A stretch of DNA of 34,317 nt from the IMG/VR virus record IMGVR_UViG_3300032334_000880, positions 1-34,317 of that record; one strand, written 5' to 3'. The notes below the pieces were generated by a model that saw nothing but the letters and a program-made list of their open reading frames with translations, searched no databases and was not told the origin of the DNA. Numbering within the stretch: the stretch's first letter is position 1; each line of letters opens with the position of its first letter. A program made the translations under genes and the position numbers. This document shows positions 2,078 through 26,779 of the stretch, piece by piece. Source of the stretch: a virus.

Positions 2078-2081
2078 CAAC

Positions 2082-2111
2082 TTCAACGGCTCCGGCGGCC
2101 ACCCGTAGCGT
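2082..2111 (+). promoter_or_regulatory. Putative late promoter P1 (16-base repeat family)
   Basis: The 57-base gap between terL and portal holds TTCAAC (2082-2087), 18 bases, then TAGCGT (2106-2111), which would start RNA near 2118. The -35 box lies in the exact repeat ACTTCAACGGCTCCGG, also found at 6939, 10023 and 26748. Seen: the repeat and spacing. Inferred: promoter function. Confidence 0.5.
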
Positions 2112-2134
2112 GACGGCTCCCGAGGGACCGCCGC

Positions 2135-3661
2135 GTGATCTCACAAGCCACCGAACAAGAACCGTGGGAGATGCGTCAGATCGACCTGCCCGGGTGGCAG
2201 TCGAGCCTGACGAACCTCCCGCTCGTCCAGTGGATCGACGGCTGTTCCGTCAACGGGTCGAACGGCGACGTGGTCCAGGAGCTCTACGTCACCGCGATCC
2301 TCGCGTGCGTGCGGTTCCTCGCCGAGTCGATCGCGTCGATGCCGATGCAGCTCTACCGCTCCGTCCAGGACGGCGGCCGGGTGAAGGCGTCGAACCTCCC
2401 GCTCTACGAGGTCCTCCACGGCCAGCCGAACCACTGGCAGAGTTACTTCGAATGGATGGAGCAGCTCGTCGCACACACGGCGTTATGGGGTAACTCCTAC
2501 AACCTCATCGTGGCCGGCGATCGCGGATTCTGCTCCGAGCTGTGGCCGCTCCACCCTTCGCGTATGACCGTCTGGCGCCTCGCCGACGGGAGCCTCGAAT
2601 ACCGCTACTACCAGAAGGACGGGACCACCGCCGTCTACCGGCAGGATCAGATCCTCCACGTCCGATGGATGTCGAACGATGGGATCATGGGCATGGTCCC
2701 GAGCCAGCTCTGTCGCACGTCGGTGGAGCTCGCCCGCAAGCTGGACGAGGCGGCGTCCTCCTACTGGGAGAACGCGGCCCGTCCGTCGGTGGTGCTGGAG
2801 ACGAGCCAGCCGGTCCCCGAGTCCGCAATGGAGAAGCTCCGCCAAGCGTGGAAGCGATTCTACGGCGGGACACGAAACAGCGGATCCACCGCGGTGCTCC
2901 CGACCGGCGTTACTGCCCGGGTGCTCGAGGCCGCGAGCATGGAGCAGAACCAGTACGCGGAACTCCGGAAGGAGATCACGATCGAGATCGCACGCGCCTA
3001 CCGCGTGAGCCCGGTCATGATTGGCGACTTATCCAGGGCAACATACTCGAACGTCGAGGGCGAGCAGCTCGGGGCGCTGGTGTGGAGCCTCACCCCGTGG
3101 CAGAGGCGGATCGAGGGTGCGATCCGGCGGTCGATCCTCTCGACCTACGGCCCTGACCTCTATTGCCAGATCGACTCCCGCGGCCTCCTCCGCGGCGACT
3201 CGGCGGCGCGGTCCTCCTACTACTCGTCGCTCTTTAACCTCGGGGCGATCTCGCCGAACGACATCCGCCGGCTGGAGGACATGGACCCGATCGCCGACCC
3301 GGCGGCCGACGAGTACTACGTCCAGCTCGCGATGGCCCCGCTGGCGAAGGCGGCCGACATGGGCGAGACGCCGGCCGGGGCCGCGGCCGAAGGCGACCCC
3401 ATGGCACCCGCTCCGACGGCCGTCGTGCCGGCGGTGGTGGATCCAGCCGCTCCGGTCCTCGCGGATAGCGCCCTCAACGGGGCGCAGGTGACCGGCCTCC
3501 TCGATGTGCTGGCGGCCGTGTCCGCCGGCACGCTCGACGAGAGCGCCGCCGCGGAGCTGATCGCCGTCGCATACCCGACCGTACCAGCCGCCTCGGCGAA
3601 GGTGATCGTCGCCGGAGCCAACAAGCTAAAGGGAGCCGCCGATGCCGTCGCCACAAGTTGA
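2135..3661 (+). CDS. Portal protein (HK97 gp3-like)
   Basis: A 508-residue portal, the dodecameric ring at the capsid vertex through which DNA passes. The body matches Phage_portal (HK97-type) proteins: 'CVRFLAESIASMPMQLYR' near the start, the 'HTALWGNSYNLI' stretch, 'ARAYRVSPVMIGDLSRATYSN' and 'GAISPNDIRRLEDMDPI' near the end of the fold. The C-terminal ~110 residues are Ala/Pro-rich and low complexity. The GTG start at 2135 has GAGGGA 7 bases upstream; ATG 2171 is the alternative. It overlaps the protease gene by 20 bases. Confidence 0.93.
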   Translation: MISQATEQEPWEMRQIDLPGWQSSLTNLPLVQWIDGCSVNGSNGDVVQELYVTAILACVRFLAESIASMPMQLYRSVQDGGRVKASNLPLYEVLHGQPNHWQSYFEWMEQLVAHTALWGNSYNLIVAGDRGFCSELWPLHPSRMTVWRLADGSLEYRYYQKDGTTAVYRQDQILHVRWMSNDGIMGMVPSQLCRTSVELARKLDEAASSYWENAARPSVVLETSQPVPESAMEKLRQAWKRFYGGTRNSGSTAVLPTGVTARVLEAASMEQNQYAELRKEITIEIARAYRVSPVMIGDLSRATYSNVEGEQLGALVWSLTPWQRRIEGAIRRSILSTYGPDLYCQIDSRGLLRGDSAARSSYYSSLFNLGAISPNDIRRLEDMDPIADPAADEYYVQLAMAPLAKAADMGETPAGAAAEGDPMAPAPTAVVPAVVDPAAPVLADSALNGAQVTGLLDVLAAVSAGTLDESAAAELIAVAYPTVPAASAKVIVAGANKLKGAADAVATS

Positions 3662-4304
3662 ACGTCGATTCCTCCTCGCCGACGACCCGACCTGCGCGAT
3701 CGGCCTCGAGGAGCGCGACGGCGAGCCGGTGAAGATCCGCGGGACGGCGGCGGTCTACAACCGCGAGAGCCACAAGCTCGGGGACTTCCGCGAGGTGATC
3801 CTCCCCGGCGCGTTCACCGAGGCGCTCACGTCCCGGAAGAACGACGTGGTCGCGCTCTGGAATCATTCGAACGACGCGATCCTCGGCCGGCTGTCGAGCG
3901 GGACCTTGAAGCTCTCGACCGACGAGCGTGGTCTCCACTACGAGATCGACCCGCCGGACACGCAGCTCGGCCGCGACCTCATGACGCTGATCCGGCGCCG
4001 CGACATCGTCGGCTCGTCGTTCGCGTTCACGGTCGACCCCGAGCATGAGAGCTACGCGACCGACTCCAACGGCGAGACGATCCGCACGATCTCGAAGGTC
4101 TCGGGCCTCTACGACGTGTCCGTCGTGGCCCACGCCGCCTACCCGCAGACAAGCGTAGCCGTCCGGTCCTTCGAGGAGTGGCTCGCTCAGCAGCAAGCCG
4201 CCCCGAAGGAGCCGGCGGTCAAGACGGTCTCCATGAGGTCCCGCGCGGTGCGGGCTCTCGCGGGGATCACCGCGAAGAGGTTGTCCCTCTATGTCCCCCG
4301 CTGA
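3642..4304 (+). CDS. HK97-family prohead maturation protease
   Basis: A 220-residue U35/S78 serine protease that removes the capsid scaffold (delta) domain during head maturation. Key segments: 'KIRGTAAVYNRESHKLGDFRE', 'ILPGAFTEAL', the catalytic His in 'ALWNHSNDAILGR' (H75) and the catalytic Ser in 'DIVGSSFAFTV' (S125/S126), then 'SGLYDVSVVAHAAYPQT'. The order portal-protease-capsid is standard, but here about 2.7 kb of accessory genes separate protease and capsid. The Arg-rich C-terminus (MRSRAVRALAGITAKR) is probably dispensable to the fold. Confidence 0.93.
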   Translation: MPSPQVERRFLLADDPTCAIGLEERDGEPVKIRGTAAVYNRESHKLGDFREVILPGAFTEALTSRKNDVVALWNHSNDAILGRLSSGTLKLSTDERGLHYEIDPPDTQLGRDLMTLIRRRDIVGSSFAFTVDPEHESYATDSNGETIRTISKVSGLYDVSVVAHAAYPQTSVAVRSFEEWLAQQQAAPKEPAVKTVSMRSRAVRALAGITAKRLSLYVPR

Positions 4305-4455
4305 GTGCAAGCGTTGCGGATGCCGGATGAAGGTCGAATCCTCCCGGCCCGCCGGCCCGAACAGCCAGCTCCAGTATTGCCGTTGTCCGTCGTGCCAGTG
4401 TCGTCGCTCCCGCGTCGTGGACGCGACGACCATCTGGCGAAGAAGCAAAAGGTGA
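4291..4455 (+). CDS. Cys-rich zinc-ribbon-like miniprotein
   Basis: A 54-residue open frame (ATG 4291, TGA 4453) overlapping the protease gene end by 14 bases. It carries two cysteine clusters, 'CKRCGC' near the N-terminus and 'CRCPSCQC' about 24 residues later. This C-x2-C ... C-x2-C layout suggests a small treble-clef or zinc ribbon. The tail is basic. A purine-rich GAAGAGG lies about 11 bases before the start. The next gene starts 5 bases after its stop, so it sits well in the operon. The cysteine spacing and tight packing argue for a real gene. Function unknown; nucleic-acid or protein binding through zinc is an inference. Confidence 0.6.
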   Translation: MSPAECKRCGCRMKVESSRPAGPNSQLQYCRCPSCQCRRSRVVDATTIWRRSKR

Positions 4456-4459
4456 ACCC

Positions 4460-4705
4460 GTGCCGGAACTCAACCAGCAGACCATCGCCCTCGCCGTCGT
4501 GGCGCTCCTGATCGTCGGACCTCACGCGAAGCGCTGGGTCTACCACACGCTCTGGCCGAACTCGGAGAAGGCCGACTTCCAGAAGACCACGGTCTCGAAG
4601 CTGATCGACCTCCGGGACGACCTCGAGGCCAGCGGCTCGGCCGCCTCGGCGAAGCTCACCCGCGACCTGATCGTGTCCCTCGTGAACGGTGAACAACGTC
4701 CGTGA
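4460..4705 (+). CDS. Small single-pass membrane protein, unknown
   Basis: An 81-residue protein starting at GTG 4460 with AAAAGG about 7 bases upstream. One hydrophobic segment, 'TIALAVVALLIVG' (residues about 8-20), is followed by a charged, helical C-terminal part (KLIDLRDDLEASGSAASAKL). Its 3' end overlaps the CAP-domain gene (GTG 4702) by 4 bases. N-terminal anchor plus soluble helix could suit a spanin-, holin- or adaptor-like role, but no family is recognised. It is the first of a run of membrane or exported products. Confidence 0.7.
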   Translation: MPELNQQTIALAVVALLIVGPHAKRWVYHTLWPNSEKADFQKTTVSKLIDLRDDLEASGSAASAKLTRDLIVSLVNGEQRP

Positions 4706-5157
4706 TCCGCGTCGCCTTCATCATCTTCGTTCTCTTGGTGGCCGCAGCCATCTTCCCCGCAAAGCGGGAGGAGGCCGTGGCCGCGCCCCCGCGCATCCTC
4801 GCGCCGGTGCTCGCGCCGGTGCGGAAGGTGATCGGCAACACCTACGAGCGGGCCGTGGTGGACCTCGTGAACCGCGAGCGGACGCGGCGCGGTCTCCGGC
4901 CGCTGAAGGTCAACGAGAAGATGATGGCCGACGCTCGCGGGTGGAGCTCAACCCAAGCCAGCCGGCGGCGGATGTTCCATTCCCGCATGGGCTACGGGGA
5001 GAACGTGGCGGTCGGCCAGCCGACGCCCGAGGCGGTGATGGTCGCGTGGATGAACTCCCCCGGCCACCGGCGGAACATCCTCAATCCGAACTACTCGACG
5101 ATCGGTGTCGGTCAGGTGGGCAACGGATCGCCCTACTGGACCCAGGTGTTTAAGTGA
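4702..5157 (+). CDS. Secreted CAP-domain (SCP/PR-1-like) protein
   Basis: A 151-residue protein with an N-terminal signal or anchor (MIRVAFIIFVLLVAAAIFPA) and a CAP domain over about residues 48-150. The family motifs are clear: 'LVNRERTRRGLRPLKVN' at the start, 'MFHSRMGYGENVAVG' carrying the His and Glu of the conserved cavity, and 'VAWMNSPGHRRNILNPNY' followed by 'STIGVGQV'. Bacterial CAP proteins act outside the cytoplasm in sporulation, surface or host-interaction roles, mostly undefined. It overlaps the preceding membrane-protein gene by 4 bases. A CAP protein inside a phage head operon is unusual. Domain identity is strong; a role in lysis or host-surface modification is inference. Confidence 0.88.
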   Translation: MIRVAFIIFVLLVAAAIFPAKREEAVAAPPRILAPVLAPVRKVIGNTYERAVVDLVNRERTRRGLRPLKVNEKMMADARGWSSTQASRRRMFHSRMGYGENVAVGQPTPEAVMVAWMNSPGHRRNILNPNYSTIGVGQVGNGSPYWTQVFK

Positions 5158-5177
5158 TCCGTCGTAAGGAGGTGATC

Positions 5178-5537: not shown

Positions 5538-5550
5538 GTGAGGCCGGGCG

Positions 5551-6318: not shown

Positions 6319-6328
6319 CCGCGGCCGG

Positions 6329-6808
6329 CTACTTGTTGAGCTCGTGCCACGCCTCGACCTGATTCTTCACGACGTAGAGCTGGAGCGAGTAGTCGCCGGG
6401 ATGCTCTCCGACCGCGTCCGCGATGATCTTCTTCACGACCTTCTCCGGCACACCTTCGGCGGTGAAATCCCGGAGCTTCTTGAAAGCGTCGAGCTCACCG
6501 CGGCAGACGTAGAGCTGGAGGGAGTAGTCGGTCGGGTGCTCCTTCACGGCGGCGGCCTTGATCGCCTTGAAGGTGACCGTGGGAACTTCGTCGTCTGAAA
6601 GAGCCTCGAGGTCGAGGTACGCCTCGGTCTCGGTCTTCACGACGTAGAGCTGGAGGGAGAAATCGTCCGGATGCTCGGCCGCCGCTCGGGCCTTGATCTC
6701 GGCGACGATCGCCTTCGGCACCTCGGCCACCGCTGGCCCGTCCGCCCAGGCCGAGGATCCCGACACAACAACCGCCACGAACGCCACCGACAGCACCCCT
6801 CCGCGCAT
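6329..6808 (-). CDS. Exported protein of three 45-residue repeats (moron-like)
   Basis: A 159-residue protein on the opposite strand to the head operon. The signal peptide is MRGGVLSVAFVAVVVSGSSAWA. The rest is three tandem repeats at residues 31-75, 76-120 and 121-159, each beginning with Pro and carrying 'EHPxD(Y/F)SLQLYV' and a following Glu/Ala helix. At DNA level the 'gacgtagagctggag' block recurs at 6371, 6506 and 6641, exactly 135 bases apart. The start has GAGGGG 6 bases upstream, and there is a promoter candidate of its own. This independent-cassette layout is typical of morons expressed from a prophage. I recognise no family. Confidence 0.8.
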   Translation of the reverse strand: MRGGVLSVAFVAVVVSGSSAWADGPAVAEVPKAIVAEIKARAAAEHPDDFSLQLYVVKTETEAYLDLEALSDDEVPTVTFKAIKAAAVKEHPTDYSLQLYVCRGELDAFKKLRDFTAEGVPEKVVKKIIADAVGEHPGDYSLQLYVVKNQVEAWHELNK

Positions 6809-6865
6809 CGTCTACCCCTCGTTTCTTGATGTGGTTGATCGGCCGGCGGGTCGCCGGCACGACCA

Positions 6866-6895: not shown

Positions 6896-6940
6896 GCTCC
6901 TGGTCGGTCGGCCTCCGTTCTCCCTTAGTACCGCGGCAAC

Positions 6941-6970
6941 TTCAACGGCTCCGGGGCCGTTCCCCAGAAT
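6941..6970 (+). promoter_or_regulatory. Putative late promoter P2, before the capsid gene
   Basis: TTCAAC (6941-6946), 18 bases, CAGAAT (6965-6970), inside a copy of ACTTCAACGGCTCCGG, and 33 bases before the capsid start codon. It would give an extra RNA start for the most abundant virion protein and bypass the accessory island. The repeat is seen directly; promoter function is inferred. Confidence 0.55.
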
Positions 6971-7002: not shown

Positions 7003-8256
7003 ATGGAATCGACCATCCGCCGCAAGGCACAGGACGAGATCGCCACCATCACCGCCCGTCTCGAAGAGCTCCGCTCCGTCGAGGTCGTGGAAGGCTCCGA
7101 CGAGCAGGCCGCGGCCCAGCTCGAGATCGAGTCCCTGGTCCAGCGCGGCGACAAGGCGACCTCCACGATCGACGCCCAGGACAAGCTCGACGCCAAGATC
7201 GTCGCCATGCGTTCCGCTCTGGCTGGCGTTGCCAGCCCCGAGCCCCGCGCCGTGGAGGCCCCGGCCGTCCACACGAGTCGGAGCGTGATCGGCCGCTCGT
7301 CGCTCCAGATGTGGGAGCGGTCCGGCGTGTCGGCTGACCGTGTCGCCAACATCGGCGAGCACTTCCGGGCCATGGCTCGCGGCGAAGTCCGCGGCGCGTT
7401 CACCACGGCCACCGAGGCCGCGAACAGCATGGGCGGCAAAAAGCCGACCTACAACACGAAGGGCGCCGAGCTCGTCTACGAGGACGTGTATCGTGGCGTG
7501 ATGGGCATCCTCGAGGAGACCTCGGTCGGCCTCCAGGTCGCCAACGTCATGGGATGCAGCTCGAACCAGCTCACGCTCCCGCGGTCCGACGACGCGATCG
7601 ACGCGAACTGGTACCTCGAGAACACGGAGATCGCTCCGGTTCTCATCAAGACCTCCCAGACGATCATCCCGATCAACAAGCTGGGCGCTCGCGTCCAGGT
7701 GTCGAACGAGCTGATCGAGGACTCGGTCTACTCGGTCGCCACGCTCGTCGCCCAGAAGGTGGCGTTCGCGTTCGCGGTCGAGATCGACCAAGCGTGGATC
7801 GACGGCAACGTCGGCGCCGGTATCACCGGCCTGACGACCGCCGTCACCCAGTCGGTGACGATCGGAGCCGGTGGCCTCACGCCGGCCGACGTGGCGAAGG
7901 TCCACGCCGCGATCAACCCCTACGCCGTGAACCCCGTGTGGGTGCTGTCGCCGGAAGGCGTCGGCCTCCTCAAGGCCGCGGCGGCCGGTGCGATCGGGAC
8001 CGACATCACCGCTCCCTCGCGGCTGTCGATCTTCGGGATCCCGGTCTACATCTGCAAGCAGTTCACCGGGAAGAACATCGGCATCTTCGCCGACTTCAAG
8101 CAGCTCTCGACGGTGGCTGTCCGGTCGAACGGTCTCACCATCGCGGCCAGCCGCGAGCGTGCGATCGAGTACGACCAGACGGTCTTCGTCGCGACCCAGC
8201 GGCTCGGCATCGGCATGACCGGCGCCTCCTACGGTGTGCTCCTCAAGAAGCCGTAA
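7003..8256 (+). CDS. Major capsid protein (HK97 fold)
   Basis: A 417-residue HK97-type major capsid protein. Residues about 1-75 form a charged coiled-coil (MESTIRRKAQDEIATITARL...) corresponding to the delta/scaffold domain cut off by the protease at 3642-4304. The shell domain carries typical stretches: 'STVAVRSNGLTIAASRERA', 'NKLGARVQVSNELIEDS', 'AFAVEIDQAWIDGN' and 'VWVLSPEGVGLLKAA'. ATG 7003 was chosen because AAAGGAGC lies about 8 bases upstream; the frame is open back to 6826 but crosses the promoter region. It has its own promoter candidate and is followed by a strong hairpin terminator, so it may be a separate high-level transcript. Confidence 0.95.
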   Translation: MESTIRRKAQDEIATITARLEELRSVEVVEGSDEQAAAQLEIESLVQRGDKATSTIDAQDKLDAKIVAMRSALAGVASPEPRAVEAPAVHTSRSVIGRSSLQMWERSGVSADRVANIGEHFRAMARGEVRGAFTTATEAANSMGGKKPTYNTKGAELVYEDVYRGVMGILEETSVGLQVANVMGCSSNQLTLPRSDDAIDANWYLENTEIAPVLIKTSQTIIPINKLGARVQVSNELIEDSVYSVATLVAQKVAFAFAVEIDQAWIDGNVGAGITGLTTAVTQSVTIGAGGLTPADVAKVHAAINPYAVNPVWVLSPEGVGLLKAAAAGAIGTDITAPSRLSIFGIPVYICKQFTGKNIGIFADFKQLSTVAVRSNGLTIAASRERAIEYDQTVFVATQRLGIGMTGASYGVLLKKP

Positions 8257-8319: not shown

Positions 8320-8332
8320 GAATAGGTGATCC

Positions 8333-9261: not shown

Positions 9262-9776
9262 TCAGCCTCAACCACGCCGAGGTCCGCGGCGACATCGGCG
9301 CGATCGTCCGGCGATTCGACGCGCTCCCGAAGCACATCTCGCGGAAGCACCTCGGGGCCGCGATGAAGCTGGCGATCAAGCAGTCCCGCGGCGTCCAGGT
9401 GTTGAAGTCCATGACGCCGAAGAAGAAGGGCAAGTACAAGGCCGCGTGGGTCGGCGACAAGCGAACGGCCGGCGGCCTCCGGCGGAGCGCTACGGTGAAG
9501 ACCGTCGGCGTCCGGTCCGGTGGCTCGGCGTTCGCGGTGCTGGGCTACAAGTACGGGTGGGAGAGCCGGAAGGGTATCTGGCAGGAGTTCGGGACCAAGG
9601 CCGGGTGTAAGCCGCAGCGAATGGCGGAGAAGGCGTTCCGGCAGATCGCCGGACCGGTGAAGGCGATCCTCGGGGCGAAGCTGATCAACGCCCTGGAGAA
9701 GGCGGTGAACGAGCTAGCCGGCGGGAAGAATCCGACCCGCGTCTATTCGGCCGGCGGAACATGGAGGCCGGGCTGA
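9258..9776 (+). CDS. Tail completion / neck protein (HK97 gp10-like)
   Basis: A 172-residue basic protein. The layout, an N-terminal helix 'IVRRFDALPKHISRKHLGAAMKL', a 'MTPKKKGKYKAAW' basic patch, 'SAFAVLGYKYGWESRKGIWQEFGT' and a C-terminal helix, fits HK97 gp10-like proteins that join head and tail. 'W-EFGT' is the family's usual signature. The start overlaps the previous stop (ATGATC) and the stop overlaps the next start (TGATG). Confidence 0.85.
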   Translation: MISLNHAEVRGDIGAIVRRFDALPKHISRKHLGAAMKLAIKQSRGVQVLKSMTPKKKGKYKAAWVGDKRTAGGLRRSATVKTVGVRSGGSAFAVLGYKYGWESRKGIWQEFGTKAGCKPQRMAEKAFRQIAGPVKAILGAKLINALEKAVNELAGGKNPTRVYSAGGTWRPG

Positions 9777-10171
9777 TGCCATACCCTGAGACGTGGCTCC
9801 GCGGTGCGATCGAGGCGGCGGCCGGATGCCCGGCGTGGCCGATGGCGGTCCCCGAGGGCGCCCCGACACCGTTCCTCGTCTACCGCCGGACCGGCACGCT
9901 CCGCGAGCGGACGCTCGCGTTCCAGACCGCCACGCCGGTCGCCACGTTCCAGGTGTGGATCGTGGCCGACTCCTACCTCGCGGCGAAGGACCTCGGGGAG
10001 AAGGTCCGCCTCGGGGTCGACAACTTCAACGGCTCCGGCGCCGGTCTCACAATCGACCACGCCTTCCTCACGGACGAGTCCGACGGAGAGGTCGACTACG
10101 ACGAGGGGCAGGATAAGCCCACCTACACGATCCAGCAGATCTACGAGATCCGCTACTGCGAGACGCGGTAG
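9776..10171 (+). CDS. Tail terminator (DUF3168-like)
   Basis: A 131-residue protein, read as the ring that caps the finished tail tube. The order 'GCPAWPMAVPEGAPTPFLVYRRTGT', 'VATFQVWIVADSYLAAKDLGEKVR' and 'YTIQQIYEIRYCE' matches the DUF3168 fold and its map position. ATG 9776 overlaps the previous stop and has GGAGG about 8 bases upstream. The stretch coding DNFNGSG (10019-10039) contains a copy of the late-promoter repeat, so coding and control may overlap. Confidence 0.78.
   Translation: MPYPETWLRGAIEAAAGCPAWPMAVPEGAPTPFLVYRRTGTLRERTLAFQTATPVATFQVWIVADSYLAAKDLGEKVRLGVDNFNGSGAGLTIDHAFLTDESDGEVDYDEGQDKPTYTIQQIYEIRYCETR
10021..10053 (+). promoter_or_regulatory. Possible intragenic late promoter P3
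   Basis: The exact CAACTTCAACGGCTCCGG (10021-10038) shared with the 2079 and 6937 copies lies inside the tail terminator gene. TTCAAC (10025-10030) is followed after 17 bases by CACAAT (10048-10053). RNA from here would begin about 130 bases before the tail-tube genes. It could be only a coding coincidence (FNGSG), hence lower confidence. Confidence 0.4.
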
Positions 10172-10189
10172 CACCACCAGGAGCCACAC

Positions 10190-10585
10190 ATGGCGATCGC
10201 CGACTCCCAGGGAACGACATTCACCTTCAACGCGATTGCGTTCCTCGCCACGAACGTGAAGGTGATGTCGAGCGTCAACGAGATCGACGCCTCGACGCTG
10301 GACCTCGCGAGCGGCTCGATGCGGGCATACCAGCCGGCTCCGCTGAAGGACGGCGACACGGTCTCCTGCCAATACTTCGGGACCCAGCGCCCGGCGATGG
10401 ACAAGAACTACGCCATCGCATGTGCGAAGCTCGGGATCTCCGGTAACGCGCTCTGCACGAAGTGGGAGAACGAGGCGAAGGTCGGCGAGCTGCTCACCGG
10501 CTCGGCGGAGTTCCGGCTCTCCGGCGGCACCACGCGGGACGATGGCACCGACGCCACCGACGGGACCGACACCACCACGCCGTGA
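10190..10585 (+). CDS. Putative major tail (tube) protein 1
   Basis: A 131-residue protein, SD CAGGAG 6 bases before ATG. The order (after the tail terminator, before the chaperones) and the opening 'QGTTFTFNAIAFLATNVKVMSS', 'EIDASTLDLASGSMR', 'DTVSCQYFG' suggest a tail-tube-type beta-barrel. The C-terminus is an Asp/Thr/Gly low-complexity tail (DDGTDATDGTDTTTP), perhaps surface-exposed. The next gene looks like a distant second copy of the fold. The assignment rests on position and pattern. Confidence 0.6.
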   Translation: MAIADSQGTTFTFNAIAFLATNVKVMSSVNEIDASTLDLASGSMRAYQPAPLKDGDTVSCQYFGTQRPAMDKNYAIACAKLGISGNALCTKWENEAKVGELLTGSAEFRLSGGTTRDDGTDATDGTDTTTP

Positions 10586-10594
10586 GGTCGGCCG

Positions 10595-10993
10595 ATGCCC
10601 ACGACCCCGATCCCGAACGCCCAGGGCTCGACCCTGGCATTCGGTGGCGTGACGTTCCCGAAGCTCACCGGGTGGAAGGTCCAGGCCGGCGGCGTGACGC
10701 TGTTCGACCGGACCCACATGGGGAGCAGCACCTACGGCAGCGGAACGAACGTCCGCGTCGTGAAGCAGTTCGACGTGTCGGCGGTCGAGCCCGACTCGGT
10801 CGAGGCCACGGCCCTCGGGCCTTCCTCCTTCGGTCCGGATGACAAGGGCCGCGCGGCCGCGCTCACGCTCACCTTCCCCGATGGGACTTCCTTGTTTGGG
10901 ACCGCGGCCCTGGTGAACTACACGGTCGAGGGCCAGGTCGGCGACCTCGTGAAGACCTCGATGTCGTTCAAGTACCTCGGTTACGAAGTCTAA
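10595..10993 (+). CDS. Putative major tail (tube) protein 2
   Basis: A 132-residue protein starting 9 bases after the preceding stop. It opens with 'NAQGSTLAFGGVTFPKLTGW', close in pattern to the previous gene's QGTTFTFNAIAF, then beta-rich segments (KTSMSFKYLGYEV at the end). Two adjacent tube-like proteins suggest a duplication in which one forms the tube and the other a decoration or tip-proximal ring. Which is the main tube protein cannot be told from sequence. Confidence 0.6.
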   Translation: MPTTPIPNAQGSTLAFGGVTFPKLTGWKVQAGGVTLFDRTHMGSSTYGSGTNVRVVKQFDVSAVEPDSVEATALGPSSFGPDDKGRAAALTLTFPDGTSLFGTAALVNYTVEGQVGDLVKTSMSFKYLGYEV

Positions 10994-11003
10994 GGAGCAT
11001 TCC

Positions 11004-11351
11004 ATGGCATTCACGCGGGATAGTTTGCTGGCCGGCGCCGGTCACAAGAACGTGGCGGCCGTCGAGGTGGACGGGGTGGGCGAGGTGTTCCTCCGCTCGC
11101 CGACGTTCGCGGAGTGGTATCCGCTGATCCTCGACCAAGCGAAGCACGACGGCGGCCCGGTGCCGGACTCCGTGGTCGCGTCCACGATCGTCGCTCTCCT
11201 CTGCAACGAGGACGGCGAGCGGCTCCTCGAGGACGGCGACGCGGCGGCGGTGTTGTCGAATCCGCCGGCGGTGGTGATGGCCCTCTACAACGCTTGCAAG
11301 CTCCACCTCGCGAAGGCCGCAGAAGCCCGTGAGGAGGTGTCGGGAAACTGA
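11004..11351 (+). CDS. Tail assembly chaperone (gpG-like)
   Basis: A 115-residue protein, ATG after AAGGAGCATTCC. It lies just before the tape measure, where Siphoviruses encode two overlapping chaperones that coat the tape measure before tube polymerisation. 'VFLRSPTFAEWYPLI' and a helical C-terminal half (AVVMALYNACKLHLAKAAEA) fit. Its last sense codons lie on the slippery sequence GGGAAAC, directly before TGA, so some ribosomes shift to frame -1 and make a longer gpGT-like product. Confidence 0.82.
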   Translation: MAFTRDSLLAGAGHKNVAAVEVDGVGEVFLRSPTFAEWYPLILDQAKHDGGPVPDSVVASTIVALLCNEDGERLLEDGDAAAVLSNPPAVVMALYNACKLHLAKAAEAREEVSGN

Positions 11352-11389
11352 GAAGCCAGCCGGAGCTCCTGATGCTCTTCCGGCTGGCT
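11342..11389 (+). promoter_or_regulatory. Programmed -1 frameshift signal of the tail chaperones
   Basis: The heptamer GGGAAAC (11342-11348) is read as G GGA AAC in the zero frame, with the TGA stop immediately after. After a 5-base spacer, AGCCAGCCGG (11354-11363) pairs perfectly with CCGGCTGGCT (11380-11389), extended by one A-T and one G-U pair. Slippery site, spacer and stem match the canonical -1 frameshift arrangement. A purine-rich AGGAGG 4 bases upstream may also influence pausing. Confidence 0.88.
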
Positions 11390-11692
11390 CTTGCAATGAA
11401 CGAGCCCGACGTGGACGCCTTCGCGTCGCGGCTCACGATGCGGTCGCTCGCGATGTGGCAGGGGTTCTATGACGTGGAGCCATTCGGCGACGAGTGGCGG
11501 CAGTCGATGCGGTTGGCAAACATGATCCGGGCCATGGCCGGGGCCGATGTAAAGGTCGATGACGAGGACAAGCTGATGCCGAACTACCGCCCACCAGTTC
11601 AAACCGAGGCCGAGATGATCGCCGAGCTCGCGAAGATCCCGGCGTTTGCGGAGCAGCTCCGGGCCGCGGGAAAGATCGGCGGTGAGGCATGA
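11348..11692 (+). CDS. Tail assembly chaperone, frameshifted extension (T domain)
   Basis: The -1 frame after the slippery site encodes 114 residues (LRSQPELLMLFRLALAMNEP...) and ends at 11692. Joined to the upstream frame it gives a fusion of about 229 residues, the gpGT equivalent. Features such as 'RSLAMWQGFYDVEPFGDEW' and 'MRLANMIRAMAG' are typical of the T part of Siphovirus chaperones. An ATG at 11372 exists but has no convincing ribosome site, and lies inside the frameshift hairpin. The stop overlaps the tape-measure start (ATGA). Confidence 0.82.
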   Translation: MRSQPELLMLFRLALAMNEPDVDAFASRLTMRSLAMWQGFYDVEPFGDEWRQSMRLANMIRAMAGADVKVDDEDKLMPNYRPPVQTEAEMIAELAKIPAFAEQLRAAGKIGGEA

Positions 11693-13071
11693 GCGCGACG
11701 ATCGGCAAGGTCGCGGCGGTTTTCACGGCGTCCACGACCGGCCTCACCAGCGGCGTGAACGCGGCGAAGGCGTCCTTGAACGGGATGTCTGGCACCGTGG
11801 AGAAGATCCACGGCAAGCTCACGATGTTGACGGCGATCGAGGGGGCGAAGCTCTTCGGGTCGATCGCGTCGGCCGCCACCGACACGGCGCGGTCTATGAT
11901 CCAGATGGGCGACGCCACGGCCCAGATGATCGACGAGCAAAGCAAGGCGGCGGCGAAGCTCGGGGTCTCGCTGAACTCGTTCGTCGCGCTCTCCCAGGCG
12001 GCCGAGCTCGCCGGGATCTCTCAGGGGAAGGTGACCGGGGCCGTCCAGAAGATGGGCCTCGCCCTGGTCGCGGCCGAGGGTGGCTCCAAGAAGGCCCAGG
12101 AGGCGTTCTCGGCGCTCGGCCTCTCTGCCTCCGAGCTCTCCAAGATGTCGCCGGAGAAGGCGTTCCAGGTGATCGCGGAGCAGATCGCGAAGCTCCCGAC
12201 CCCGGCGGAGCGGACGGCGGCGGCGATCAAGATCTTCGGCAAGGCCGGCAAGGACCTTGGTCCGCTCTTCGAGGGCGGGGCCGCGGCGATCCGCCAAGCC
12301 ACCGAGGAGGCCGATCTCTTCGGGACGGCTCTCGACACCCTAAGCGGCAAGCAGGTCGAGGAGATGAACGACGCCTTCACACGACTCGGGAAGGCGTTCG
12401 AAGGGTTCAAGGTCCAGGTGGTGGCGGCGTTCGCTCCGGCGGTGACGGCCGGCGTCGAGAACGTGATCGCGAAGCTGAAGGACGCCGGCGGGATGCGGGA
12501 GGTGGCTCTCGACTTCGCCGAGACGGTGGGCTTCGCGGTGGTCACGCTCGTCGAAGGTGCCGGCCATTTCGCCGAGATCATCAAGGACGCCCTGAACGCG
12601 GTGAAGTCCGCCTTCGACGGGATCAAGAACTTCCGCGCCTTCCTGATGGATATCCAAGGGGCCGGGACGGAGGTCGTGTCCGACTTCGCGTTCTTCCTCA
12701 ACCGATCGAAAGAGACGGACGAGACCCTCCAGATGCGCAGGGACGGCCGCAAGATGCGGGAGGAGGCGACGAAGCTCTGGCGGGAGTCGATGGGGCTGGC
12801 CCCGATCGGCGCCGACGGCCAGCCGAAGACCGAATCCGACATCCGGAAGGCCCTCCGCGAGAACCTCGAACGGATGCGAGCCTTGCAGAAACCGCCGGCC
12901 ACGGCGGCGGCGCCACCGGCCCCGATGCTCGAGCGGAGCGACGAGGCTCGGCCGATGTCCGAGGCGACCGGCCTCAAACAGGTGACGCTCCTCCAGAAGA
13001 TCGCGAAGTCCCTCGGACTGCCGGAGCCCGAGGCGGTGTTCGTTCTGGCCGGCGCGGCGGGAGGTAACTGA
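11689..13071 (+). CDS. Tape measure protein
   Basis: A 460-residue helical protein that sets tail length and is expelled during DNA entry. It is Ala/Lys-rich throughout, with 'AAVFTASTTGLTSGVNAAK' at the start (common in tape measures), long amphipathic helices, and a hydrophobic stretch 'VALDFAETVGFAVVTLVEG' (about residues 270-290) that may be the membrane-interacting part. It is short for the family; at about 1.5 A per residue the tail would be near 70 nm. The start overlaps the chaperone stop; the stop overlaps the next start. Confidence 0.88.
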   Translation: MSATIGKVAAVFTASTTGLTSGVNAAKASLNGMSGTVEKIHGKLTMLTAIEGAKLFGSIASAATDTARSMIQMGDATAQMIDEQSKAAAKLGVSLNSFVALSQAAELAGISQGKVTGAVQKMGLALVAAEGGSKKAQEAFSALGLSASELSKMSPEKAFQVIAEQIAKLPTPAERTAAAIKIFGKAGKDLGPLFEGGAAAIRQATEEADLFGTALDTLSGKQVEEMNDAFTRLGKAFEGFKVQVVAAFAPAVTAGVENVIAKLKDAGGMREVALDFAETVGFAVVTLVEGAGHFAEIIKDALNAVKSAFDGIKNFRAFLMDIQGAGTEVVSDFAFFLNRSKETDETLQMRRDGRKMREEATKLWRESMGLAPIGADGQPKTESDIRKALRENLERMRALQKPPATAAAPPAPMLERSDEARPMSEATGLKQVTLLQKIAKSLGLPEPEAVFVLAGAAGGN

Positions 13072-13934
13072 TGGCCGTCGTGAACACCGTCGAGGTCGTG
13101 GCGGATCGCTCGTGGAGCGGAAGGTACCGCCAGCCCTACAACTACTCGCGCTCCTTCCTCGTGAAGACGGACGACCCGCAGACCTCGATCGTGGAGGTAG
13201 CGCAAGCTCCCGGCATTCGGTATCTGAACGCCCACCCGGACGACCCCGAATGCCTCATGCAGGACTTCTCCTGCCAAGCGGTGGACGAGTCGGGCCTCTA
13301 CTACCGGGTCGTCTTCAAGTACGAGCCGCTCCCTCCAAACGAGGACAGCAATCAGTCCGGCGGTGGCGGCATCGTGATGCCGGTCGACGCATGGAGCGCG
13401 TCGGGGTCGATCACCTCGGGGCCGGCGACCGTCGACAAGGACGACAAGCCGATTGTGAACTCAGCCGGGGATCCGATCTCCGAGATCGAGAAGGACCACG
13501 CCGAGTTTCGGATCGTCCTCACGCGATGCGTGATGGATCTCTCGTGGACCTCCGTCGCGATGGACTACACCAACGCGGTGAACTCCGGATCGTGGAACGG
13601 GTCGGACGCAAGGACGTGGAAGTGTCACTTCCAGAACGCCGCGAAGCGGCAGGAGTCGAGCGACTCAGGCGTCCTTGAATACTGGGAGACGACGTGGGAG
13701 TTCGTCTACCGTCCGGAGACGTGGGATCTCAAGCCGCTCAACGTCGGCCTCCAGGAGAAGAAGGGCGGGAAGAAGGTCGGCATCAAGCTGGAAGGCGAGC
13801 CGGTGATCTCGCCGGTGGCGCTCGACAACAACGGCAAGGCTACGCCGGACGCCGATCCCGACGTGATCAACGGCGGGAAGGGTGTCCGCGTCTACCCCGA
13901 GAAGGACTTCAGCATCTTCGGGACGCCGTCATGA
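13071..13934 (+). CDS. Tail tip / distal tail protein, unassigned
   Basis: A 287-residue protein directly after the tape measure, where distal tail or baseplate-hub proteins are found. It is beta-rich with many aromatic residues (SGRYRQPYNYSRSFLVK, LEYWETTWEFVYRPETWDLKPLN), consistent with a virion protein. No catalytic motif is visible and I do not recognise a named family. TGATG coupling to the tape measure and ATGA coupling to the next gene tie it to tail assembly. Confidence 0.65.
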   Translation: MAVVNTVEVVADRSWSGRYRQPYNYSRSFLVKTDDPQTSIVEVAQAPGIRYLNAHPDDPECLMQDFSCQAVDESGLYYRVVFKYEPLPPNEDSNQSGGGGIVMPVDAWSASGSITSGPATVDKDDKPIVNSAGDPISEIEKDHAEFRIVLTRCVMDLSWTSVAMDYTNAVNSGSWNGSDARTWKCHFQNAAKRQESSDSGVLEYWETTWEFVYRPETWDLKPLNVGLQEKKGGKKVGIKLEGEPVISPVALDNNGKATPDADPDVINGGKGVRVYPEKDFSIFGTPS

Positions 13935-14284
13935 GAGCCGATAAGACCGGCAAGTTCACGAAGCGGGACGCCCAGCGCATCGCGAACTGTGTCGCGTCGT
14001 TCGAGCGCGGCACTCGCAAGCAGAAGGCGATCAAGTACGAGCGGAACTACGCCGGCGGGTCGCCGATCCGCCTCGGGAAAACCACCGCCGCGTGGTCGAA
14101 GGGGACGCTCGCGACGATCACGCTCTACGAGGAGGGGACGCCACCGAATGAGACCGCGACCTCGCCGGAGGAGACGCTGGAGGATTGTGTGAACAAGTTC
14201 GCGGACGTTAAGTCTGGCAAATGGGTCGCCGTGGCGAAGGGTGGAAATGGGTCGTGGTACTTGATCGCGGCGGAGTGTGAGTAA
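13931..14284 (+). CDS. Small tail-module protein, unknown
   Basis: A 117-residue protein starting at ATG 13931 (ATGA overlap) and ending in TAATG shared with the next gene. The N-terminal half is basic (DKTGKFTKRDAQRIANC, RGTRKQKAIKYERNY). The C-terminal half is a predicted beta-sheet ending 'SGKWVAVAKGGNGSWYLIAAECE'. The pattern suggests an adaptor or accessory tip protein. No family recognised. Confidence 0.65.
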   Translation: MRADKTGKFTKRDAQRIANCVASFERGTRKQKAIKYERNYAGGSPIRLGKTTAAWSKGTLATITLYEEGTPPNETATSPEETLEDCVNKFADVKSGKWVAVAKGGNGSWYLIAAECE

Positions 14285-15540
14285 TGGTCCTTCTCCCATG
14301 TTCGAAGTGCTGCGGTAAATGCACTTGCACGGGGTGCCTACAACTCTACGCCAGCGGGTCGACTGCCGACCAAAAAGACCCATGCTTCGCATTTAACTAC
14401 GAAGCGAGGAAGCGACCGTTCGTCGGCAGTTACGTCGGCGACCTGGAGCTCGACGGCGAGCGGTACGAGTGTGCCTATCGGTTCGGGATCTCTTACGACG
14501 AGATCAGCGGGGCGGACGTCACGGTAGGGTTTGCCTACCTCGTCCTCCCGAAGGACGTGAAGCCACCGAACCCAAGCGGCCCGAGCCAGCCGCCGAACGG
14601 GAAGGCGCTGTTCTTCGTGCGGACATCGCTCGGGTGGACCGCCGACTACGAGATCGACAACGTCAAGGAGTGTCCGCGGTATGTCGCGCCGGGTGAGCCA
14701 GGCGCTACCGTCGACCCGAACGCGGACGAGGGCTACTCGATCACGTTCACGAAGGCCGACATGGTGGCCTCGACCGGCAACCCCGACGAGTGCGGGGAGC
14801 TTACGTTCACGGTCACGGAGTGCCACGACCCGCCACCGCCACCGAAGCGGTACACATGCAGGCAGAGGAGTTGCGAAAACCCTCTTGACTGTCCATTTGA
14901 CTGCGTGGAAGACCCTAACGGCGAGTACGACGAGCCGACGTGTGGTGGAAACTGCGAGCCGAAGCCCAACCCGTGCTCCGTCCTTGTCGACGGCAAGCGG
15001 GTGCCAGTGTCCTCGTTCGACCCCTACGAGGTGATCACGGCGAAGTGGCGCGGCTTCCAGGCTTCCGGTCGCCAGAAGGTCTTCGTGAATGGCGTGCTCG
15101 ACAGTGACATACCGTCACTCGGCTCGGACTCCGTGTTGAAAGTAACGTCCGGAGGATGCGACGCCGGCGGCCAGACGAACGACTTTGAAGGCGTGTTCAT
15201 CGCCACCGGCGGAGTCGGTGTCATAAACGCATGTCTTACTGCCGAGGCGTCCACCAACTACCAGACGCTAGTATGCGAGGGAATCGACGAGACGAAGGCT
15301 CGGCTGTATGGCGGTGTCGGCACCGTGAAGATCTACTCCCCGTGCCTAATCGCCGGCAACCCGTCGGGGGATAGCATCCAGGAGGAGGACTGGTGGTTGT
15401 GGGAATGTCTCCTCGTGGACGGTGTTCCGGGGAAGGTCAAGGTAACGCCGAGCGTCGGGGCGCGGTACTTCAATAGCAACCCCGTATTGTGCGAAGTGAC
15501 CCACGAGGCTCCGGAGGTCACGCTGGACTTCGTCCCATGA
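14284..15540 (+). CDS. Large Cys-rich tail-module protein
   Basis: A 418-residue protein with an unusual cysteine content. The N-terminus is CSKCCGKCTCTGC (residues 6-18), a dense metal-knuckle-like cluster. A second set (YTCRQRSC, LDCPFDC, TCGGNCEP) follows a polyproline linker (HDPPPPPKR) in the middle. The rest looks beta-rich, as in fibre or tip proteins. It is coupled by TAATG to the preceding gene and by ATGA to the next. Synonymous codons look somewhat less GC-biased than in the neighbours. The position suggests a tail-tip or receptor-contact protein held by metal or disulfides; that is inference. Confidence 0.68.
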   Translation: MVLLPCSKCCGKCTCTGCLQLYASGSTADQKDPCFAFNYEARKRPFVGSYVGDLELDGERYECAYRFGISYDEISGADVTVGFAYLVLPKDVKPPNPSGPSQPPNGKALFFVRTSLGWTADYEIDNVKECPRYVAPGEPGATVDPNADEGYSITFTKADMVASTGNPDECGELTFTVTECHDPPPPPKRYTCRQRSCENPLDCPFDCVEDPNGEYDEPTCGGNCEPKPNPCSVLVDGKRVPVSSFDPYEVITAKWRGFQASGRQKVFVNGVLDSDIPSLGSDSVLKVTSGGCDAGGQTNDFEGVFIATGGVGVINACLTAEASTNYQTLVCEGIDETKARLYGGVGTVKIYSPCLIAGNPSGDSIQEEDWWLWECLLVDGVPGKVKVTPSVGARYFNSNPVLCEVTHEAPEVTLDFVP

Positions 15541-18386: not shown

Positions 18387-19256
18387 TTACGCCGCCTCCT
18401 CGCCCAGGTCGAGCGGCGGGAGGTCGTCGAGGCTACTCCGCGGCGGTGCGATCGACGGGTCGACGTATGAGTCCCGCGTGATCCTCGGATCGGAGTGGTC
18501 GAGGAGACCGGTCGCGTCCCCGCCGGCCTTCGCGACGTAGCTGGCGGCGGTCTTCCGGAGAGCGTGGAACCCGCGATGCGGGACGCCCGCGGCCTTCGTG
18601 ACCTTCCGGAGGTCGTACCAAAGCGACTCGCGATGTCGCACCCACGGCCAGACGAGCTCTCCCGGGCCGCGTTGAATCAACCGCAACCACGACGCGAGCC
18701 CCGGCGAGATCGCCCGCTGGATGTCGCGGGTCGCTCCCTTCCTCGTCTCCGCGACGTACACGATGTGTCCGGCCTCGAGGTCCACGTCTCGCCACCGGAG
18801 CTGGAGCATCGCCCCGACCCGCTCGGCGGTCTCGAAGCCGGATCTTAGAATGGTGCTCCACCACACCCCGGCCGGGAGGCCCGAGACCTCCCCGGGCCAC
18901 GCCCTCGCGGTGCGGATGAGCTGCGAGACCTGCGCGATCGTGTACGCCCTCGGGATCCGGCCCGGCGCCTTCATCGGCGGGAGGGTCGGGAACTTCTCCA
19001 CGAGCCTCTCCCGGGCCGCGTACCCCCAAAGTGCCACGAGGTGGGTCCGGTCCTTGACGACCGTGGCCGTCGAGACCTGGAGCTTCCGGGCCGCGAGAAA
19101 CCGCTGGACGGAGATCGGCGTCAGGTCGGCCAGGGTCGGCTCACGGAGGAGGTGTTCCGAATACCGCTCGATGGTCAGGCGGTACTGGAGGAGGGCCTTC
19201 GGGGCGAGGCCCCGGAGCGGGGCGTATTGGTCGTCGAGCAGGTGGCGTAGGTTCAT
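18387..19256 (-). CDS. int: Tyrosine-family site-specific integrase
   Basis: A 289-residue tyrosine recombinase that integrates and excises the phage. An N-terminal SAM-like/core-binding domain (residues about 15-95) precedes the catalytic domain. Catalytic residues are visible: R146 in 'FETAERVGAML', K173 in 'TRKGATRD', H231/R234 in 'GFHALRKTAASY', H254 in 'LLDHSDPRIT' and the nucleophile Y264 in 'RDSYVD'. The set is complete, so it should be active. AGGAG lies 7 bases before the start (on the - strand). Its presence makes the phage temperate or recently so. Confidence 0.95.
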   Translation of the reverse strand: MNLRHLLDDQYAPLRGLAPKALLQYRLTIERYSEHLLREPTLADLTPISVQRFLAARKLQVSTATVVKDRTHLVALWGYAARERLVEKFPTLPPMKAPGRIPRAYTIAQVSQLIRTARAWPGEVSGLPAGVWWSTILRSGFETAERVGAMLQLRWRDVDLEAGHIVYVAETRKGATRDIQRAISPGLASWLRLIQRGPGELVWPWVRHRESLWYDLRKVTKAAGVPHRGFHALRKTAASYVAKAGGDATGLLDHSDPRITRDSYVDPSIAPPRSSLDDLPPLDLGEEAA

Positions 19257-21886: not shown

Positions 21887-21896
21887 GGAGGCCGGC

Positions 21897-22076
21897 ATGT
21901 CGGACGAAAGCCATGGACGGCTCCCGTGGGATCCCACCCCCGCCGAGATCGCCCGCCGTTGTGCGGAGATCAGGCGGGGGTGGCCCCACGGGGAAGCGGC
22001 CACAAGGAAGGGTGGCGGGCTGGTCCCGCGCACCAGGGAGAAGCGGAAGGCACGGCAACGGAGGCGGTTCTCGTGA
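21897..22076 (+). CDS. Small basic protein with DPTPxEIAxRCAEI motif
   Basis: A 59-residue protein starting at ATG 21897 after GAGGAGG. Its N-terminal half, 'LPWDPTPAEIARRCAEIRRG', is nearly the same as 'YVDPTPEEIAARCAEIQREW' in the protein at 26353-26748. The C-terminus is Arg/Lys-rich (TREKRKARQRRRFS). A shared short motif next to basic or HTH parts suggests a common binding partner in this phage. Overlaps the next GTG. Confidence 0.62.
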   Translation: MSDESHGRLPWDPTPAEIARRCAEIRRGWPHGEAATRKGGGLVPRTREKRKARQRRRFS

Positions 22077-22321: not shown

Positions 22322-22701
22322 GCTGGGTCGCGCCTTCCTTCTCCGTGATGCGAGGCGACGCAGGCCGGACGTGGCTCCGTCGCTCCGACATCCTCGCGGC
22401 CCTCGCGGCCGAGAGCCTCCCGATGTCGTGGTACGAGGCGAAGCAGATCCTCGCCACGATGCCGAAGCCGGCGAAGCACCACGGCCACTACCAGTTCACG
22501 GTCGAGCACCGGGACGCGGTGCTGGCCGCGGCACGGATGACGTACAGCGCCCGCCCCGGGGCCAAGCCGCTGGCAGCGGTCGGGGAGCGTAGCGGCGGAT
22601 CGCTTTGTAATCGCCGCAGCGGAGACGGCTCGACATCCTACGACGCCGAGACTCCGCCGGATGCCCCACGAGACGGGGCAAAATCAAGGAGGGGACCATG
22701 A
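22318..22701 (+). CDS. Early operon protein, unknown
   Basis: A 127-residue protein. The first ~85 residues look folded (WLRRSDILAALAAESLPMSW, YEAKQILATMPKPAKHHGHY, TVEHRDAVLAAAR), with a possible helix-turn-helix shape. The last 40 residues are Gly/Ser/Asp-rich and probably disordered (SGDGSTSYDAETPPDAPRDG). ATGA overlap with the next gene. No function assigned. Confidence 0.62.
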   Translation: MSWVAPSFSVMRGDAGRTWLRRSDILAALAAESLPMSWYEAKQILATMPKPAKHHGHYQFTVEHRDAVLAAARMTYSARPGAKPLAAVGERSGGSLCNRRSGDGSTSYDAETPPDAPRDGAKSRRGP

Positions 22702-23000
22702 TACCGAAGACGACCATCGACGCGATCTACGAGCTCCCGATCTTCGCGGCGGCTCGTCGCACCGACCCGGCACCGTCGAAGGCGGCGGCCCAGCGGGCGC
22801 CGGTGCGCGGCCACTGCCTCCTGGTGCTCGAGGCCCTGTCCTCGGGGCCGGCGGGCCAGACGGAGATCGCGAAGCGGGCCGGGCTCACGGTGGCGGCTGT
22901 GTCGAAGCGGTTGCCGGACCTTCGGCGGAATGGGTTGATCGAGAGGACCGGCCGCGAGGTAGCGGACGGTGAGGGGGAGTACAGGAGGGTGCAGGGATGA
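22698..23000 (+). CDS. Winged-helix DNA-binding protein
   Basis: A 100-residue protein. The central segment, 'HCLLVLEALSSGPAGQTEIA' then 'KRAGLTVAAVSKRLPDLRRN' and 'GLIERTGREV', is a classical MarR/ArsR-type winged helix, with recognition helix around 'TVAAVSKRLPDL'. The SD is AAGGAGGGG 5 bases before ATG. It may regulate the early operon or assist replication. The stop overlaps the next start (ATGA). Confidence 0.78.
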   Translation: MIPKTTIDAIYELPIFAAARRTDPAPSKAAAQRAPVRGHCLLVLEALSSGPAGQTEIAKRAGLTVAAVSKRLPDLRRNGLIERTGREVADGEGEYRRVQG

Positions 23001-24782: not shown

Positions 24783-24792
24783 GGAGCAAACG

Positions 24793-25665: not shown

Positions 25666-25689
25666 TTCGCTCCTGGACGCCCGTACCCT
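25662..25689 (+). promoter_or_regulatory. Putative promoter before gene 25717
   Basis: TTGATT (25662-25667), 16 bases, TACCCT (25684-25689). The 12 bases TTGATTCGCTCC match the 15821 site. RNA would start near 25696, about 20 bases before the GTG start, which has AGAGGAG upstream. Confidence 0.5.
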
Positions 25690-25716
25690 ACGGCCAACAC
25701 CCCAGAGGAGCCGCCC

Positions 25717-26049
25717 GTGACCCTCCCGAACGAACGCTACCGCGCCGTGATCAAGACCCGCGAGTTCCTCGTCTCGCTGATCACCCCGAGCGAGACCCCT
25801 CGTATACCGTCCCACGTTCGCTCTGTGGCCCGTTTGCTCCTCCGGCACTATCCGAACACCCTCGACATGGAAAGCGCCGCCTACGAGGCTCCTAGCGTGT
25901 TTGAGGGGGAATCGGCCCGGAGGCGTGAGGAACAGACGTTCATGGTGGACGTGGCGGAGCGGCTGACGCCGCCACGGCGGACGTGGCGGGAGTTCCTGTG
26001 TGGGTCACGGAGGACCGACGATGTCGCGAATGAGCCGGGAGAAGGGTAA
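25717..26049 (+). CDS. BPSL0761-like small protein
   Basis: A 110-residue protein from GTG 25717 (SD AGAGGAG). 'NERYRAVIKTREFLVSLITP', 'IPSHVRSVARLLLRHYPNTL' fit the BPSL0761-type family, short proteins found in prophages and proteobacterial genomes with no known function. The C-terminal ~40 residues (ERLTPPRRTWREFLCG) are not part of the conserved core. Overlaps the nuclease gene by 29 bases. Confidence 0.68.
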   Translation: MTLPNERYRAVIKTREFLVSLITPSETPRIPSHVRSVARLLLRHYPNTLDMESAAYEAPSVFEGESARRREEQTFMVDVAERLTPPRRTWREFLCGSRRTDDVANEPGEG

Positions 26050-26371
26050 GCGGGGCGAGCGGGAGGCCGCGGCGGAGCTCGGCGAGCTGCTCGGCGTGGA
26101 CGCCCGGCGTGGCGTCCAGTTCCAGGGTGGCCCCGACTCCCCGGACGTGGTCCTCGAGGACGTTCCGATCCACGTCGAGTGCAAGCGGGTCGAGGCGTTG
26201 AATCTCTACGCCGCGATGGAGCAGGCGAAGGCGGACGCCGGCGAGAAGGTGCCGGTGGTGTGGCATCGTCGCAACAACCAGCCGAGCGTGGTGATCGTGA
26301 GGACGAGCCGGCTGGTGGAGCTGGCCCGGGCCATCGTGGAGGCGGCGGACCGATGCAAGCCAAACGAATGA
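26021..26371 (+). CDS. Hjc-like Holliday junction resolvase / PD-(D/E)xK nuclease
   Basis: A 116-residue protein. 'REKGKRGEREAAAELGELLG' with an early Glu, 'GGPDSPDVVLEDVPIHVECK' with D and E-x-K, and '...EKVPVVWHRRNNQPSVVIVR' follow the order of PD-(D/E)xK endonucleases, especially small Hjc/phage resolvases. Such an enzyme would resolve branched DNA before packaging. ATG 26021 has GGAGG 7 bases upstream; ATG 26030 is an alternative. Overlaps the next gene. Confidence 0.78.
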   Translation: MSRMSREKGKRGEREAAAELGELLGVDARRGVQFQGGPDSPDVVLEDVPIHVECKRVEALNLYAAMEQAKADAGEKVPVVWHRRNNQPSVVIVRTSRLVELARAIVEAADRCKPNE

Positions 26372-26748
26372 GCACGATCCGGGCCTACGCCCGCCAGACG
26401 TGGTCGCGGAACCTCCGGCGTGGCTCGGTGGCGAGGGTGAAGCTCACCGAGGCCCAAGTCGCCATGGCTCGCCGACTCTGGAGCGAAGGCGTCCACCGGG
26501 ACGAGGTCGCCCGCCGGATCGGCGTGTCGGTGACCACGTTCATCGCCCGGCGCGGCGACCAGCTCGCGGACCTCGAGCGTCGGGCGCAGGGAGTGGGGAG
26601 CAAGAAGCCTGGAGGCTACGTCGACCCGACTCCCGAGGAGATCGCGGCTCGGTGTGCGGAGATACAGCGGGAGTGGACGGCCGAGGAGCGGCTCCAGCGG
26701 CTGGCCGGGCGCGGGAACATCCTTCGCGTGATCAACCTCCGGCGCTGA
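26353..26748 (+). CDS. HTH protein with DPTPxEIAxRCAEI motif
   Basis: A 131-residue protein. 'KLTEAQVAMARRLWSEGVHR' plus 'DEVARRIGVSVTTFIARRGD' is a resolvase/sigma-like helix-turn-helix (residues about 26-65). The C-terminus holds the motif 'DPTPEEIAARCAEIQREWTA' also found at 21897-22076, then 'ERLQRLAGRG'. ATG 26353 has GGAGG about 9 bases upstream; ATG 26368 is the alternative, on the previous stop. As the last early gene directly before a late-type promoter it is a candidate late regulator; this is inference. Confidence 0.68.
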   Translation: MQAKRMSTIRAYARQTWSRNLRRGSVARVKLTEAQVAMARRLWSEGVHRDEVARRIGVSVTTFIARRGDQLADLERRAQGVGSKKPGGYVDPTPEEIAARCAEIQREWTAEERLQRLAGRGNILRVINLRR

Positions 26749-26749
26749 C

Positions 26750-26779
26750 TTCAACGGCTCCGGTGAGCGTCCGTAGAAC
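26750..26779 (+). promoter_or_regulatory. Putative late promoter P4, before the fibre module
   Basis: TTCAAC (26750-26755), 18 bases, TAGAAC (26774-26779), within the exact repeat ACTTCAACGGCTCCGG (26748-26763) that begins right at the HTH gene stop. Expected start near 26786. It would drive fibres, HNH and, after circularisation, the terminase genes. Confidence 0.58.

Follow-up and report, generated by a model that had tools for sequence, protein, structure and literature searches.

Four exact copies of a 16-base element, ACTTCAACGGCTCCGG, occur in the window (the whole stretch of 34,317 bases that was analysed), and these sites are very probably late promoters of a phage, read by the host polymerase with an HTH protein as the likely activator at a -35-like element. 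Judged from sequence, the set appears to form a phage late regulon in which both factor and element are new and one promoter lies, unusually, within a gene. The features on which this reading is built are as follows.

2080..2111, plus strand: predicted late promoter 1, with the 16-mer, the -35-like core TTCAAC at 2082-2087 and the -10 hexamer TAGCGT at 2106-2111; predicted to drive the portal gene (GTG 2135); counterparts in L044, L040, L045, L047, L050, L051, L055, L057, L073, L083 and G013-G016
6939..6970, plus strand: predicted late promoter 2, core 6941-6946, -10 CAGAAT 6965-6970; predicted to drive the major capsid gene (ATG 7003); same site in nearly all relatives
10023..10053, plus strand: predicted late promoter 3, within the tail-terminator gene, core 10025-10030, -10 CACAAT 10048-10053; 5' of the putative tail-tube gene at 10190
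26748..26779, plus strand: predicted late promoter 4, core 26750-26755, -10 TAGAAC 26774-26779; predicted to drive the baseplate/fibre module
2135..3661, plus strand: portal protein (PHROG 12)
7003..8256, plus strand: major capsid protein (PHROG 10)
9761..10171, plus strand: tail terminator, the gene that contains predicted promoter 3 (PHROG 347/123)
10190..10585, plus strand: putative tail-tube protein; the name comes from gene order, and no family matched
18387..19256, minus strand: tyrosine integrase (PF00589 and PHROG 1), its strand kept in relatives
26021..26371, plus strand: Holliday-junction-resolvase-like gene (PHROG 244, E 2.4e-18), neighbour of the HTH gene where the early cluster ends
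26428..26748, plus strand: HTH protein, candidate late activator, 106 aa from GTG 26428 (ATG 26353 is possible), recognition-helix residue T36
26804..27157, plus strand: 117-aa gene, first of the fibre module, with weak similarity to the Pam3 gp18 baseplate plug

Genome setting

The window is a virus contig with terminase, portal, protease, capsid, connector, tail chaperone and tape measure genes. The structural genes are followed by the minus-strand integrase, early genes, the resolvase-like gene, the HTH gene and the fibre module. If circular permutation is allowed, the order reads integrase, early genes, resolvase, HTH gene, site 26748, fibres, terminase, site 2080, portal, site 6939, capsid, site 10023 and tail. 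The integrase marks the phage as temperate and separates late from early genes. Among 50,697 named phage records, no near DNA match to the window was found, and the best portal and terminase identity was only about 37%. In a search for the host, the terminase gave only matches of about 30% in genomes, and the integrase had no match in plasmids.

Several neighbouring regions are unusual in their own right. A secreted-type CAP-domain protein (4702-5157; PF00188, E 1.6e-15) lies amid the head genes and is kept in several relatives; it is an unusual cargo for a structural operon. On the minus strand, between late genes and just 5' of the capsid promoter, a 159-aa ORF (6329-6808) has a likely signal peptide and three direct repeats of about 135 bp. 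This gene is missing in the relative L044, yet both phages keep the site adjoining the capsid gene. Between window positions 10172-15540 and L044 positions 9631-15166 the tail genes have been exchanged, with identity dropping from 74% to about 35%, and the border of this tail module falls directly after the tail terminator, the gene that holds promoter 3. Finally, several fibre-like genes follow one another at 29762-33481; they contain repeats and a collagen-like stretch (PF01391) and may form a variable set for receptor binding.

The repeated element

The copies of ACTTCAACGGCTCCGG lie at 2080-2095, 6939-6954, 10023-10038 and 26748-26763, all on the plus strand, and the minus strand of the window has no exact copy. 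Dinucleotide shuffles gave an expectation of 0.56 matches even with three mismatches allowed, and across 100 order-3 Markov versions of the window the maximum copy number of any 16-mer was two. The conserved block around the 16-mer in the window itself spans 16-18 bp. Two near matches at 30132 and 33651, each with three mismatches and within ORFs, were set aside, as a scan for the core plus the -10 hexamer did not support them. Exact 16-mers in other viral contigs, except L007, which is the same as L044, look like unrelated chance matches.

The first-pass annotation, which had proposed a late-promoter family, was right in essence. Its four positions were found again, far above chance. So were the three copies in short gaps 5' of the portal gene (2135), the major capsid gene (7003) and the fibre-module gene at 26804, and its reading of their geometry, TTCAAC followed after 18 bases by TAGCGT, CAGAAT or TAGAAC, was correct. 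The copy at 26748 overlaps the TGA of the preceding gene by one base. The gene that it had described only as preceding the tail-tube genes, and as holding the fourth copy, is the tail-terminator gene (9761-10171). What it had overlooked is the -10-like hexamer of this in-gene copy, CACAAT at 10048-10053, which lies one base closer to the core.

Conservation across related phages

The first-pass annotation had pointed to close relatives, and to a lack of the repeat before the same genes, as the place to look for a refutation. L044, which shares 82-97% protein identity with the window over most head genes, carries the exact 16-mer at both corresponding gaps, 5' of the portal and of the capsid gene, despite changed flanking bases. 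Further lineages were gathered through portal and capsid protein alignments, and most of them proved to have a related element in the corresponding gaps. In all, a matching element occurs at the same loci in about 20 lineages of related, uncultivated phages, with protein identity down to roughly 30-50%. These loci lie 5' of the portal gene, 5' of the major capsid gene, in the tail terminator about 165 bp 5' of the putative tail-tube gene, and 5' of the baseplate/fibre module. The late-promoter reading is thus supported by lineage-specific elements at matching loci, each with a -10 hexamer at a fixed spacing.

The element differs in spelling among these lineages. ACGTTCAAGG together with TAGNNT was found in L040, L045, L047, L051 and L055. 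Both sites read TTAAAGGG in L050, TTCACGGG in L073 and in G013, and GTTCGGGGGG in L057; L084, L086, L091 and L092 carry TTCAGCGG. A scan with a strict pattern gave 30 matches in 29 loci, where 1.65 would be expected; almost all were on the plus strand and 5' of late genes. Scans of long contigs recovered sites 5' of the portal gene, the capsid gene and the fibre module, as well as inside the tail terminator. The number of sites per genome is four in the window and two to five in relatives; the pre-portal site is missing in L084, L088, L091 and G017.

Two further groups of sites were noted. In a subgroup in which the portal gene overlaps the terminase gene, a promoter-like site lies in the 3' part of the terminase gene (G005 4289, G007 9975, L059 1941), as if relocated. 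G001, G006 and G009 have a further site in their CAP-domain gene, which was set aside; a conserved Val-Gln-Ala coding stretch explains it, and the window and L044 lack it.

The promoter signature

For the signature, 62 sites from 20 genomes were aligned by hand on their TTC core. At a spacing of 18 or 19 bases after TTCAA, the A at -11 and the T at -7 of the -10 hexamer, a hallmark of promoters of the sigma70 type, were present together in 43 of the 44 non-coding sites and in 17 of the 18 coding ones, a few of the 62 sites having been located with patterns that already included the -10; at other spacings the pair occurred in only 0-2 sites. These are the two bases of the -10 hexamer that sigma region 2 reads most strictly. 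The consensus of the hexamer is tAgnnT, and the pair at its fixed spacing would separate promoters from plain operators or linkers. The canonical -35 hexamer TTGACA is absent, its place being taken by TTCAAC in the window and by other cores elsewhere. Among lineages the core reads TTCAAC, TTCAAG, TTAAAG, TTCAGC, TTCACG, TTCGGG or TTCCAG, and its spelling is mostly uniform across the sites of one genome. L059 is an exception, with CAAG in its fibre and terL-internal cores and CCAG in its capsid and in-gene cores.

This signature bears on whether the sites could be operators of a repressor that silences the late genes in the prophage, comparable to the stoperators of mycobacteriophages. Like stoperators and start-associated sequences, the sites are short asymmetric repeats in gaps, all oriented along transcription, in a phage that has an integrase, and a phage HTH protein covaries with them. 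However, stoperators and start-associated sequences come in many more copies and are not known to have a -10 partner at a fixed distance. Here there are only about four copies, every one at a late locus, and pure operators would give no reason for a -10-like hexamer at a fixed distance. We therefore consider the operator reading very improbable.

A predicted promoter inside the tail-terminator gene

In the tail terminator of most relatives, the pair of residues encoded at the site follows the core of the genome. It is FN in the window, FK with TTCAAG, LN with TTAAAG, FS with TTCAGC, FT with TTCACG or TTCACC, FG with TTCGGG, and FQ with TTCCAG at the capsid site. Compared with the non-coding cores of the same genome, the in-gene cores had on average 0.43 mismatches in 6 positions, against 1.61 when permuted, and none of 20,000 permutations was as good. 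The same held for eight representative variants (0.46 against 1.91 mismatches, 0 of 20,000). That unrelated loci change to the same letters is not explained by shared descent alone, so the in-gene copy is very likely functional. Its ACAAT also encodes a conserved Thr-Ile and is thus not independent evidence for a -10 hexamer. The in-gene site is missing in L055, L056 and L072.

Copies within genes, together with the constant -10 spacing and the lineage-specific co-variation, also speak against the repeats being recombination linkers, footprints of mobile elements or RNA signals. Three copies do lie at gene borders, and the window and L044 have exchanged their tail genes after the tail terminator, as linkers might lead one to expect. 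The element, though, folds as RNA no more strongly than shuffled sequence. This reading is already disfavoured, and we give it hardly any weight.

A candidate activator

The first-pass annotation had suspected a phage activator, and this gained support from a conserved HTH gene. In each of the nine long genomes examined first, and at nearly every HTH locus added later, this gene lies directly 5' of the fibre-module site or overlaps it; its 3' end contains the predicted promoter in some lineages. The HTH fold was modelled confidently (pLDDT about 90), and two C-terminal helices with lower confidence. All matches of the protein were weak, namely to resolvase-type HTH, KorA, NarL, GcrA and sigma region 4. 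The protein of the window (106 aa) has a pI of 10.9, and part sequences from relatives have pI values of 5.5, 5.9 and 9.6.

At every CAAG locus, residue 36 of the recognition helix is D, and at all other loci it is T, S, H or A (21 of 21 loci). Because this residue was picked after inspection and the tree allows only about four changes, the correlation is a lead that is statistically not decisive, and its tracking of the core is suggestive only. Taken together, the HTH protein is the probable trans factor. A coding repeat, PTPxEIAxRCAEIxxxW, is common to its C-terminal part (26623-26687) and another early protein (21930-21994), and may be a motif with which both bind polymerase or a partner.

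Other candidates for the trans factor were rejected. For a phage sigma factor, Sigma70 region 2 was found in none of 11 genomes, and sigma region 4 appeared weakly, below the cut-off, in three genomes, with two of the four matches falling on the HTH gene itself. A conserved minus-strand gene is the tyrosine integrase and no regulator, and a winged-helix protein (22698-23000) is present in only one relative.

The lack of region 2 in those 11 genomes and the sigma70-like -10 hexamer would also fit direct reading of the sites by a host sigma factor whose -35 preference is unusual, without a phage factor, the lineage differences then reflecting different hosts. Yet nearly every position of the core differs among related phages, and the core agrees within a genome, whereas the -35 preferences of housekeeping sigma factors are very conserved. 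Moreover, the conserved block of the window is 16-18 bp long, and the HTH gene stands at the same place throughout. Direct reading by a host sigma factor is therefore unlikely, if less so than the operator reading.

We favour late promoters with the HTH protein as likely activator. The host RNA polymerase, with a housekeeping-type sigma factor, would read the late promoters of a temperate tailed phage, in which the -10 hexamer is ordinary and the -35 region appears to be replaced by a phage-specific element, here ACTTCAACGGCTCCGG. The HTH protein, whose gene (26428-26748) closes the early cluster, would most likely bind this element and recruit or stabilise the polymerase. It would first fire the 26748 promoter just 3' of its own gene, for the baseplate/fibre module, and also those 5' of the portal, capsid and tail-tube genes, the last from inside the tail terminator. 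That the sites start transcription, and that the HTH protein binds the element and activates, we infer from the evidence above. A more far-reaching version, in which the protein takes the -35 role and the host sigma factor reads the -10, element and protein co-evolve throughout a diverse family of phages, and the embedded promoter dictates amino acids of the terminator, a protein of virion assembly, is put forward tentatively, as possible and somewhat short of probable.

Comparison with known systems

In T7-like phages a whole RNA polymerase is the trans factor of a promoter set. As in those sets, all promoters of one genome appear to change along with the trans factor, but here this is probably a small HTH protein acting with the host polymerase.

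The late regulators RinA and Ltr of Gram-positive phages offer a closer likeness. They are described as small basic proteins (about 130 aa) and late transcription as one long transcript from one promoter (PMC13123087). In the window and its relatives, similarly, an HTH gene stands at the end of the early cluster, directly 5' of a promoter. In contrast, at least four dispersed sites occur here, one of them intragenic, and these promoters are predicted from sequence. No match of the HTH protein to the RinA/ArpU/Ltr family was found in NCBIfam, Pfam or PHROGs. The protein may work like the RinA/Ltr regulators, but it matches no known family.

GcrA is described as a sigma70 cofactor of Alphaproteobacteria that acts at m6A-methylated sites (PMC7403470). 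Like GcrA, the phage protein would have an N-terminal HTH of about 45 residues and, connected through a linker, a helical C-terminal part. The similarity in HTH sequence and fold is weak: Foldseek gave a probability of 0.99 and a TM of 0.72 over 45 residues, but an E of 0.25, and Pfam GcrA matched one member of the HTH family weakly (E 0.013). Unlike GcrA sites, the 16-mer has no GANTC, and no similarity was detected between the C-terminal part, in which helices are predicted, and the sigma2-interacting domain of GcrA. GcrA would be a functional parallel only.

Meaning

These findings would provide a readable code of late-gene control for an uncultivated phage family for which the search of named phages gave no close relative. 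The candidate activator and its putative DNA sites, present in many versions, form a natural data set for the joint change of a regulator and all of its targets. The tail terminator would be a clear case in which an intragenic promoter appears to force protein changes, and matched activator-promoter pairs could serve as orthogonal parts.
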